Assembly: GCA_019636875.1 (NCBI GenBank)
Contig: JAHBWR010000005.1
Coordinates: 1 to 64,000, forward strand
Length of the DNA: 64,000 bases
Reading direction: 5' to 3'
DNA from: Nitrospira sp.
GTDB lineage: Bacteria > Nitrospirota > Nitrospiria > Nitrospirales > Nitrospiraceae
Shown: positions 11,759-14,637 of the stretch, piece by piece
Position numbering within the stretch: the first letter of the stretch is position 1
How the letters are laid out: the number at the start of each line of letters is the position of its first letter
Notes under the pieces: generated by a model
What the model was told of the DNA's origin: nothing
The model's database searches: none
The model's input: the letters and a program-made list of their open reading frames with translations, nothing else
Made by a program: the position numbers and the translations under genes

Positions 11759-12757
11759 ATGAAGGCGATGGTCCTCGATAAGACAAGCGCTGTCTCTAGC
11801 CATCCCTTACAGCTTCGAGATCAACCTCTGCCTATTCCCAAGCCTGGTCATGTCCTCGTGAGGGTCCAGGTGTGTGGCGTCTGTCGCACGGATCTCCATG
11901 TGGTGGAAGGGGAACTGCCGGACCCTACACTGCCGCTGATCCCAGGCCATCAGGCTGTCGGCACGGTGGTACAAGTCGGCTCCGAGGTTTCAGAGATCAA
12001 GGAAGGGGATCGCGTAGGGATTGCCTGGTTGCAAGGCACATGTGGTCAATGCGAGTTCTGCACGAGTGGGCGGGAAAATCTTTGTTTGAACGCCAAGTTC
12101 ACCGGCTATCAGGTCAACGGCGGATATGCCGAATATGCCCTTGTGCCTGCTCGATTCGCCTACCCTATCCCCTCGATCTTTTCAGATGATGAAGCCGCGC
12201 CCTTGCTCTGTGCCGGAATCATAGGCTATCGAGCTTTGCGATTAAGCAACATCAAGCCTGGTCAGCGCCTCGGGTTGTATGGCTTCGGCGCATCAGCTCA
12301 CATCACCATCCAGATCGCACGCCATTGGGGTTGTGAGGTGTATGTCAGTTCGCTCAAACAAGAGCATCAAGAATTGGCCAGACAATTGGGAGCGGTCTGG
12401 GTCGGCGGGGCGACGGAGATGCCACCCGATAAACTGCAGGGGTCGATTATTTTTGCTCCAGCCGGGGAGCTCGTGCCTCCGGCACTGCGCGCACTCGACC
12501 GAGGCGGAACACTGGCCTTAGCGGGCATACATATGTCGCCGATTCCGTCGTTGGACTACGACCGTGACGTGTTTGGCGAACGGGTCATCCGCAGCGTGTC
12601 CGCCAACACCAGGCAAGACGGAATCGATCTCCTACACGAAGCATCTGTGATCCCGATCAAACCACACACGGTCCGCTTTCCACTTGAGGAGGCAAACCGC
12701 GCATTACACGAATTGAAAGCGGGGAGTTTTCAAGGCGCCGCGGTGCTGACGATGTGA
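11759..12757 (+). CDS. Zinc-dependent alcohol dehydrogenase
   Basis: 332 aa MDR-family enzyme of the AdhA/AdhP group. Catalytic zinc motif CGVCRTDLHVVEG and GHQAVGTVVQVG, structural-zinc loop CGQCEFCTSGRENLC, cofactor motif LYGFGASAHI. The second G of the usual GxGxxG is replaced here (GFGASA), as in many members of this subgroup. Substrate not determinable. Start at 11759 (MKAMVLDK) from family alignment; 52 nt after yceI. Confidence 0.92.
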   Translation: MKAMVLDKTSAVSSHPLQLRDQPLPIPKPGHVLVRVQVCGVCRTDLHVVEGELPDPTLPLIPGHQAVGTVVQVGSEVSEIKEGDRVGIAWLQGTCGQCEFCTSGRENLCLNAKFTGYQVNGGYAEYALVPARFAYPIPSIFSDDEAAPLLCAGIIGYRALRLSNIKPGQRLGLYGFGASAHITIQIARHWGCEVYVSSLKQEHQELARQLGAVWVGGATEMPPDKLQGSIIFAPAGELVPPALRALDRGGTLALAGIHMSPIPSLDYDRDVFGERVIRSVSANTRQDGIDLLHEASVIPIKPHTVRFPLEEANRALHELKAGSFQGAAVLTM

Positions 12758-12918
12758 ATCAGAACGTGCAATAACTGACTGGTCGTCGCACCCGCCTTCA
12801 GTGTGCTAGTGCTTTATTCAGCCATGAATTTACGTTCCGTCCCATCAGAAAGCGGGAAAGCTCATGGCAAAATTGATCCCGCAATCCGGCGACGGGAACA
12901 AAATTGTGTAGAGAAAAT

Positions 12919-12947
12919 TTTACTCGCAGCACAAACTCTGCTATATC
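12919..12947 (+). promoter_or_regulatory. Possible promoter of the lysine-rich microgene
   Basis: TTTACT, a 17-bp spacer and TATATC, about 50 nt before the ATG at 12997. Each box differs from sigma70 consensus by two bases. It lies in a locally AT-rich stretch that contrasts with the GC-rich surroundings. Confidence 0.35.
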
Positions 12948-12996
12948 ACACATACACAATCACCATTTTTTAAAATCGAAGGGAGGTGGAGTACTC

Positions 12997-13071
12997 ATGG
13001 CAACGAAGAAAGCAGCGAAGAAGCCGGCCAAGAAGGCCGCGGCCAAGAAGCCAGCCAAGAAGAAGAAGTAG
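12997..13071 (+). CDS. 24-aa lysine/alanine-rich histone-tail-like microprotein
   Basis: ATG at 12997, TAG at 13069-13071. Composition is almost only K, A and P, with repeated AKKPAKKAA units (13 Lys, 6 Ala, 3 Pro), like the C-terminal tails of histone H1 or bacterial HU/Hc1-type proteins. A strong GGGAGGTGG ribosome site sits 8-10 nt upstream, a possible promoter at 12919-12947, and an 11-bp perfect hairpin follows at 13079. Probably a small nucleic-acid-binding basic protein. Alternative: the tail of a longer gene, but no open frame joins it upstream. Confidence 0.72.
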   Translation: MATKKAAKKPAKKAAAKKPAKKKK

Positions 13072-13078
13072 TCGTATT

Positions 13079-13110
13079 GTGAGGAGGCGGCGTCCAGATC
13101 GCCTCCTCAC
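13079..13110. terminator. Perfect 11-bp hairpin after the microgene
   Basis: GTGAGGAGGCG (13079-13089), a 10-nt loop, CGCCTCCTCAC (13100-13110). It starts 7 nt after the microgene stop codon. There is no T-run behind it, so it may be a non-canonical terminator or a 3' stabiliser. Confidence 0.6.
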
Positions 13111-13393
13111 CATTCCCACATCATCGATCGTCCTCACCCCCGCACCACATCGCACAAGTCGATGCCCAAACGAACGCTCCTTCGGTAACGCGTCCGAGAG
13201 ATTTGCCCCAGACAGAATTCACAACTACCGACGAGAGCTCCCACTCACTAACCAGCCCTCCAACGGGATAGAATCGGCAAAGGTGCTCAGATGCAACCAG
13301 ATTCAATGAGGAAGAGAGCCGCATGAGATGAGGAATTCAGAACACGACGACAGAACTGCTGGTAGGCTGAGTGCCCCACAAGCAAACAGCGGA

Positions 13394-13433
13394 CAGAAAA
13401 AGAAAGGGGAGGTGATCACCACATCACCTCCCC
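13394..13433 (-). terminator. Rho-independent terminator, leftward
   Basis: Perfect 11-bp stem GGGGAGGTGAT / ATCACCTCCCC (13406-13416 and 13423-13433) with a 6-nt loop. On the minus strand it is followed by a T-rich tail (complement of AGAAAAAGAAA at 13395-13405). It terminates something transcribed leftward; the nearest candidate is the 23-codon ORF at 13424-13495. Confidence 0.8.
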
Positions 13434-13495
13434 CAGTTCCTTCGCACCAGGAGAGACTCCATGGCGTAAAGAAAGCAGCAGTCGAATCCTAGCAT
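13424..13495 (-). CDS. Candidate 23-aa microprotein or leader peptide
   Basis: Minus-strand ATG at 13495 with AGGGGGA 5-6 nt upstream and TGA at 13426-13424, inside the terminator stem. The peptide begins MLGFDCCFLYAMESLL and ends in a basic RRNWGR. Just upstream on that strand (13510-13545) is the most AT-rich patch of the neighbourhood. Promoter-like patch, ribosome site, short ORF and intrinsic terminator together form a complete minigene. The coding call is uncertain; it could equally be a structured small RNA. Confidence 0.35.
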   Translation of the reverse strand: MLGFDCCFLYAMESLLVRRNWGR

Positions 13496-13764
13496 GAATT
13501 TCCCCCTAGAAAACAGAATAAATAAATTAATATAATCAACAGGTTGGGAAATTCTCATCGGCGATGCGAACTGGAAGAGGCCTAGGCGAGGATCATGATT
13601 AAGCGAGCCTAGTGCCCGGTTGAGGCGAAAGAACCGAACGTTGGCTACCCCCTGGGTTCTAGACTTCCAGTAACAGCTCCCCCTACACCGTGGGATACCC
13701 GGATATACTCCCTGGCAAGCTTCTGAACCCCTTACAACGTCTGGCTGAAACACCCATGCAAACC

Positions 13765-14637
13765 TTATCGCTTTCGGTTGAGCATACTCGCTGCCTGCTC
13801 TGACACTTCTTTCACCAAGATTCCCATCTTGGGATGCGACGGTTCACAATCAACCGGCCAGTCGTGGTGCCGCAACCGCTCGCTCGTGGTGGGACCGATC
13901 GAAGCAATGACCATCTTCGTCAATGCCGTGCGAAAGGCCTCCACCCGTCCCCGTCCATCCTGTTCCAAGACATGCATGACGTGGTCCACCTGAGCCGCAT
14001 TGGTGATCAGGATCACATCAACACACCCTGCTGTAATCTGATCGAGCATATGACGTATGGAACTCAGGTCTTCTGGTAGAGCCCATTTGTAGATCGGAAC
14101 CGGAAACACGTCCGCACCTCGCTGCTCCAATGCGTGCACAAAGTCTGGGTTAGAGACTCCGTATTCCTGTACAGCAACTCGCAGGTCTTTCACGGGCCGA
14201 TGTTGATCCAGCACGGCAATCACATCTGTCCAGATATTGGGCTCCGGGACCGTGAGCGTCGCGTGAAGACCGACAGACTTGAGAGCTGCAACCGACTTGG
14301 GGCCACGTGCCACAATGGTCGTCAGTTGGAGAGCAGTCATGACTGATGACCAAGAGAAGCGTGTCTTGAGCAGATCAAACAATGTTGTTGTCCCGACACC
14401 GGTCAGGAGGATCAGCAAGTCAACGCGGCCGGCCATGAGCCGTACCCCGAACTCGTGCACGACTGGATTGTCTTGGAGTCGGACCTCTCGCAGAATCGGA
14501 GCAACCAGTGGCCGCCCGCCGTAGCGTTCGATCAGACGGGTGATCTCGGTGGCCATCCGACTTTCGAACGCAGCTATGGTCATGCCGTTGAATGCCATGG
14601 AGGTTATGATCGTACCATAGCCGTCCAGCACAACCAT
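13765..14637 (-). CDS. hemD: Uroporphyrinogen-III synthase family protein
   Basis: 290 aa. Two-lobed HemD pattern: the first lobe with FESRMATEITRLIERYGGRPLVAP and a second lobe with VDVILITNAAQVDHVMHVL and VIASIGPTTSERLRHHDW. HemD cyclises hydroxymethylbilane to uroporphyrinogen III in tetrapyrrole (heme, siroheme, heme d1) synthesis; primary sequence is poorly conserved, so the call rests on these blocks. No other heme gene adjoins. The start is ambiguous: ATGs at 14637 and 14598 (MAFNGMTIAAFES) both lack a clear ribosome site; the second begins closer to the family start. Confidence 0.82.
   Translation of the reverse strand: MVVLDGYGTIITSMAFNGMTIAAFESRMATEITRLIERYGGRPLVAPILREVRLQDNPVVHEFGVRLMAGRVDLLILLTGVGTTTLFDLLKTRFSWSSVMTALQLTTIVARGPKSVAALKSVGLHATLTVPEPNIWTDVIAVLDQHRPVKDLRVAVQEYGVSNPDFVHALEQRGADVFPVPIYKWALPEDLSSIRHMLDQITAGCVDVILITNAAQVDHVMHVLEQDGRGRVEAFRTALTKMVIASIGPTTSERLRHHDWPVDCEPSHPKMGILVKEVSEQAASMLNRKR

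Follow-up and report, generated by a model that had tools for sequence, protein, structure and literature searches.

A conserved lysine-rich microgene and its convergent small-RNA gene in Nitrospira: a possible type I-like toxin-antitoxin module

A 64,000 nucleotide (nt) stretch of Nitrospira sp. DNA, positions 1 to 64,000 of contig JAHBWR010000005.1 (assembly GCA_019636875.1), was analysed and is referred to here as the window. It contains a 24-codon open reading frame (ORF), microgene 1, at 12997-13071 of the plus strand, which runs from ATG to a TAG stop codon at 13069-13071. Approximately 290 nt further on in the window is a convergent gene that is predicted to encode a small RNA. The microgene 1 product, MATKKAAKKPAKKAAAKKPAKKKK, is made up of 12 K, 8 A, 2 P, 1 M, and 1 T. 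With a net charge of +12 and a grand average of hydropathicity of -1.43, it is not a hydrophobic transmembrane peptide of the kind typical of type I toxins. The features of the two genes are as follows.

12919-12947, plus strand: predicted microgene 1 promoter, with TTTACT (12919-12924), a 17 nt spacer, and TATATC (12942-12947); the conserved spacer is GCACAAACTCTGC
12981-12986, plus strand: Shine-Dalgarno sequence GGGAGG, 10 nt before the ATG, kept in relatives
12997-13071, plus strand: microgene 1, encoding the 24 amino acid (aa) MATKKAAKKPAKKAAAKKPAKKKK, from direct reading and conserved loci
13006-13016, plus strand: predicted small-RNA target site AAGAAAGCAGC, codons 4-8, complementary to the small-RNA 5' end
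13079-13110, plus strand: hairpin of the microgene 1 mRNA, a putative 3' end or terminator; 11 bp, with compensatory stem variants
13397-13479, minus strand: small-RNA gene, predicted +1 at 13479, 5' GCUGCUUUCUU..., from alignment, covariance model, and folds
13474-13437, minus strand: small-RNA hairpin 1, from the fold
13434-13405, minus strand: small-RNA terminator hairpin, then a U-rich tail at 13404-13397
13486-13491, minus strand: small-RNA -10 TAGGAT, preceded by TGC (extended -10), 6 nt before the predicted start
13516-13539, minus strand: AT-rich conserved stretch, UP-element-like, upstream of the small-RNA promoter, from alignment

Direct reading confirmed the position of the microgene and the parts assigned to it in the initial annotation, namely a promoter-like stretch, a ribosome site, 24 codons, and an 11 bp hairpin. 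TTTACT is a -35-like hexamer and its first base, 12919, is where that annotation began. Most promoter positions are kept across 66 aligned upstream stretches. The perfect 11 bp stem (13079-13089 with 13100-13110) begins 7 nt past the stop codon and has no U-tract. Both the promoter and the hairpin were absent from the output of a generic feature scan of the window. The promoter-spacer pattern is present once in its own genome, even with 3 mismatches allowed, as is the hairpin pattern, ruling out a promoter regulon and a genome-wide hairpin repeat.

Long matches to a 256 nt stretch containing the microgene, with 73-93% identity, were found throughout the genus and also in other genera of the Nitrospiraceae. 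The start-region pattern (3 or fewer mismatches) is present in 39 of 79 genomes of the genus. In a named collection, it was found in 33 stretches, nearly all labelled Nitrospira or Nitrospiraceae and one labelled 'uncultured Nitrosospira'. Loci of the ATG type were gathered with a regular expression requiring a ribosome site and a K-rich frame, giving 73 that collapsed to 70; the expression itself demanded GGNGGTG, so conservation of the ribosome site in this set is partly built in. It would also exclude broken frames, and some homologous loci outside it were therefore inspected. These were cut by a contig end (L215, L222) or had an N at the start codon (L026), and none were frameshifted. The ORF is intact in every complete homologous locus inspected. 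A hairpin retained beside a lost frame, which would have spoken against a gene, was looked for and the frame was found to be kept.

The peptides of the 70 distinct loci are 14 to 28 aa, plus one of 54 aa, within the limit of approximately 60 aa applied to type I toxins. All 1430 of their residues are M, K, A, P, T, or V. The ratio of non-synonymous to synonymous change (pN/pS) is 0.064 on gap-free blocks (0.10 with unique rows only) and 0.07 on the whole codon alignment. For the start block it is 0.11 in frame, versus 0.59 and 3.8 in the other two frames. Microgene 1 is thus under purifying selection in these loci. Conservation across genera and pN/pS of 0.06 to 0.10 bear out the description of a complete minigene, and microgene 1 is a complete, conserved, and probably translated lysine-rich gene. 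In 69 loci, the 60 nt past the stop codon have folding energies of -22 to -32 kcal/mol. Stems are GAGGAGGCG/CGCCTCCTC in 46 loci, GAGGGGGCG/CGCCCCCTC in five, and GAGAAGGCG/CGCCTTCTC and GAGGGGGCA/TGCCCCCTC in one each; the remaining 17 differ, several being altered on one side only.

The convergent small-RNA gene was found in nearly all loci with at least 700 nt of downstream sequence. A hairpin, GGGGAGGTGAT...ATCACCTCCCC, followed by a minus-strand T-run was identified by regular expression in 53 of these 68 loci, and a covariance model recovered the small RNA in 12 of the 15 that were missed, for a total of 65. The hairpin is 218 to 596 nt past microgene 1 (distances from 52 loci). Aligned on the minus strand, the 53 sequences share an AT-rich block, a -10-like hexamer, 6 nt, GCTGCTTTCTT, hairpin 1, the terminator hairpin, and a U-tract. 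Of the 65 rows, 61 have both an identifiable hexamer and an identifiable 5' end, and in 59 of these the hexamer precedes the 5' end by 6 nt; the U-tract is present in 63 of the 65. Fold z-scores are -5.6 for the window and -4.9 and -5.5 for two other loci, with none of 200 shuffles reaching each. Hairpin 1 was recovered in 47 of 48 individual folds; RNAalifold on a MAFFT alignment missed most of it. Across 64 distinct rows there are 10 double-change pairs versus 4.3 in shuffles (0 of 500 reach this) and every slid structure is worse, these counts leaning towards a structure that came from the window's own fold and to which the alignment was refitted. Searches of Rfam 15 returned no matches up to E 1 for window positions 12500-13800 and up to E 0.5 for four further loci.

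The small RNA begins with 11 nt that form the reverse complement of AAGAAAGCAGC. In the window, 11 Watson-Crick pairs and one G-U pair are followed by broken pairing across the AUG and ribosome site. For 48 pairs of RNA (nt 1-45) and own mRNA (-45 to +30), with L160 excluded due to its duplicated seed, the mean duplex z-score is -5.55, reached by 3 of 4800 dinucleotide shuffles. Codon 5 is AAA in 68 of the 70 loci, against an AAG rule for the other lysine codons (520 AAG and 50 AAA of 570), as pairing would demand. Codon 6 is GCA in 68 of 70, the other alanine codons being mixed. The bias at codons 5 and 6 might partly stem from the start-region search pattern; in loci fetched by whole-stretch similarity, mostly from other genera, codon 5 is AAA in 26 of 27.

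The covariance model matches 68 of 175 genomes of the family. Of the 79 genomes of the genus, 39 have both genes, none have the microgene only, two have the RNA only, and 38 have neither (Fisher P 1.6e-20, uncorrected for relatedness). In the two RNA-only genomes, the microgene is cut by a contig end (G011) or has an N at its start codon (G014). Grouping by flanking sequence gave 20 different contexts upstream (65 loci) and 31 downstream (67 loci). The peptide and RNA genes therefore occur as a unit in many contexts, like a cassette. Patchy distribution and varied genomic location, a usual though not defining trait of type I systems, are thus seen here. A conserved neighbourhood with ADH or hemD was ruled out, as these are neighbours in only 4 of 70 loci within the sequence examined.

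In the window, the ADH and hemD matches end approximately 1014 nt apart. The distance is 1028 nt in G087 and 723 nt in G015, both with the module, and only 65-66 nt at five loci where the order otherwise matches (L229, L234, L238, L240, L248). Three of the five short-site genomes (G007, G068, G102) bear the module elsewhere. Of 30 hemD loci read, 17 are without ADH in the sequence examined and 13 reach it: three have the module, five are short, one has 154 nt, and four have other sequence of 1.1-1.4 kb (L231, L232, L233, L246). The L246 gap contains type II toxin-antitoxin genes, one BrnT-like (below the Pfam cut-off) and one CopG/BrnA-like, and that of L232 contains Phd/YefM and a broken PIN frame, also type II. 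The ADH-hemD gap (window 12757-13765) looks like an insertion hotspot, with the module here and type II genes or other inserts in relatives.

A sister gene, microgene 2, has a TTG start, encodes MATKKAAKKKKK, and has its own hairpin (G000:C90:37723-37755, minus strand; L022). It is beside a reading frame that we take to be lpxC-like. Microgene 2 was found in 70 of the 79 genomes of the genus, and across the family its product is 12-18 aa long. Its hairpin has a T7 tail in genus g12 of the family, as in a canonical terminator. Scanning 17 microgene 2 loci with the covariance model yielded no such small RNA. In family f3 of the order, its counterparts (L125-L144) are 24-64 aa, with AKKKAPAKK repeats, TTG starts, and post-stop hairpins; such genes are two in a row in some genomes.

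The description of the microgene as free-standing was misleading, since it travels with a convergent gene for an RNA complementary to its start region. This link changes what the biology of the microgene is likely to be. A small RNA beside the peptide gene suggests that the cell needs to keep the peptide silent. We consider it highly likely that the antisense RNA controls MATKKAAKKPAKKAAAKKPAKKKK, and probable, judging from sequence, that the two genes form an antisense-regulated module. Gene 1 would give a short mRNA (predicted at approximately 160 nt) for a strongly cationic K/A/P peptide and gene 2 a small RNA of approximately 83 nt ending in an intrinsic terminator. The RNA 5' end would pair with codons 4-8, with partial pairing extending over the AUG and ribosome site, and translation of the peptide would be blocked. 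The sequences themselves show the conservation, coding constraint, RNA structures, complementarity, co-occurrence, and presence as a unit in many contexts; transcription, pairing in the cell, and the translational block are inferred. Most speculatively, the unrepressed peptide may damage or arrest the cell that makes it through binding to nucleic acids, ribosomes, polyphosphate, or the membrane. Whether the peptide is a toxin is close to an even call, leaning slightly to the negative. The whole may tentatively be seen as a mobile type I-like toxin-antitoxin family of the Nitrospirota, in which a disordered lysine polycation would be silenced by a new small-RNA family pairing inside its first codons; this is possible, but somewhat short of an even chance.

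Several observations weigh against this reading of the two genes as an antisense-controlled, type I-like module. The peptide has no hydrophobic helix. The adjacent RNA is complementary far above shuffles, yet the longest unbroken run in the window is 12 pairs, short for a type I antitoxin; in the available text of PMC4147584, known antitoxin RNAs have at least 18 nt of perfect complementarity to the peptide mRNA. The covariance model found no small RNA at L060, L078, and L188 within the sequence examined, and it is also absent near L212, a TTG-start gene with a microgene 1-type hairpin. Longer sequence at the L060 gene (L223, G089:C503; the 54 aa peptide) has a matching small RNA approximately 3.1 kb away. 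Cognate and non-cognate duplexes score -48.6 and -47.9, a weak signal (P 0.015, uncorrected for relatedness), and a two-clade comparison was mixed, with the RNAs of one clade binding mRNAs of both clades best. In its own genome the small RNA scores -46.6 with microgene 2 and -42.3 with microgene 1. The best argument against toxicity is microgene 2, which is near-universal and unpaired and so speaks against a strong toxic effect of such peptides. Due to the short unbroken pairing, the non-hydrophobic peptide, and its putative toxicity, the module is not filed here as a type I toxin-antitoxin system.

The near-universal, unpaired microgene 2 instead favours a housekeeping cationic peptide, a binder of nucleoid, ribosome, or polyphosphate like a free AlgP or H1 tail, the dose of which is tuned by the antisense RNA without any toxin. 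This is a serious contender, though we would not expect it to prove right on balance. The longer H1-like versions in family f3 fit it as well, and a KPAA-rich AlgP tail is required for polyphosphate granule spacing and KPAA peptides bind DNA, as far as the available text of PMC9239181 goes. However, the patchy presence (39 of 79 genomes), many contexts, and short sites better fit a dispensable module. An ordinary H1/HC2-like DNA-binding protein gene, closest to the initial annotation, is improbable. The 'histone-tail-like' label, with its suggestion that the peptide may compact DNA or bind RNA, is an argument from composition only. The 24 aa peptide has no sequence match in Pfam, NCBIfam, or PDB. 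The 54 aa variant matches HC2 (E 3.2e-6) and hist_H1_lk_Burk (E 2.2e-4), but below the curated cut-offs (27.8 versus 40 bits for PF07382, 21.5 versus 80 for NF038053, and 14.5 versus 135 for NF038052), and the small RNA would be left unexplained.

Another reading, unlikely though less so than an ordinary DNA-binding protein gene, has the small RNA itself as the chief functional product, acting in trans on both microgenes and perhaps on other targets. Its predicted pairing with microgene 2 is as strong as with microgene 1, and these are the only genes in their genome to fit a MATKKA-start pattern. However, the RNA is found solely alongside microgene 1, whereas microgene 2 is retained in its absence, and codon 5 is AAA in 68 of 70 microgene 1 loci versus 19 of 59 for microgene 2. 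A further alternative, adopted at first in view of ATGGCGTAAAGAAAGCAGC, is that the element on the minus strand is an inverted copy of the microgene that has decayed, its complementarity reflecting ancestry alone. The complementary strand resembles ATGGCnACnAAGAAAGCAGC and 14 of 65 rows retain an open start-like frame; the start codon is not kept, with an ATG immediately preceding the seed in 38 of 65. This reading was rejected on the strength of the promoter with its -10 at a fixed spacing, the U-tract terminator, the covariation of the compensated hairpins, and the near-exact co-occurrence with microgene 1, and we regard it as very improbable. Origin of the small RNA by inverted duplication is plausible; loss of function is not.

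No Rfam family and no above-threshold protein family covers the parts of the module. No report of it was found in the literature on Nitrospira lysine-rich small proteins or type I toxin-antitoxin systems, most subscription journals being outside the search. According to the available text of PMC12390103, a cyanobacterial case in 2025 was the first type I system reported outside the Proteobacteria, Firmicutes, and Tenericutes, and its authors blame this restricted range on searches tied to features of known loci. If true, a peptide-plus-RNA module in nitrite oxidisers would extend the type I range to the Nitrospirota. It would add a peptide class that such searches and gene callers skip, and give a concrete handle on the role of free H1-tail-like peptides in bacteria.

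The K/A/P composition is shared with the tails of AlgP/PhaF and HC2/H1-like proteins, as described in part of PMC9239181. Those proteins differ in being long, with other domains. For their tails, we know of no antisense RNA. A hydrophobic transmembrane peptide is typical of type I systems but not universal, SymE and RalR being cytosolic by the partial accounts available. The module would be like symE-SymR in its cytosolic, non-membrane product and, on the same accounts, in an antitoxin RNA that covers the start codon and ribosome site. However, SymR is encoded opposite symE, whereas the Nitrospira RNA has a separate gene and its partner is a K/A/P peptide of 24 aa. The type I modules of Clostridioides difficile share the convergent arrangement and a lysine-rich peptide end, but have overlapping genes, long complementarity, and a hydrophobic N-terminus (PMC6563280, available text). 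In the E. coli loci tisB-istR1, shoB-ohsC, zor-orz, and dinQ-agrB, a short peptide is likewise encoded next to an independently transcribed small RNA that base-pairs with its mRNA. These non-overlapping loci are divergent and their antitoxins target a long 5' UTR (untranslated region) rather than the start (PMC4147584, available text). The Nitrospira module is convergent, its predicted target extends from the ribosome site to codon 8, and its peptide is polycationic rather than hydrophobic. By analogy, then, the module may work like a type I toxin-antitoxin pair, which it resembles in layout, size, pairing site, and scattered location.
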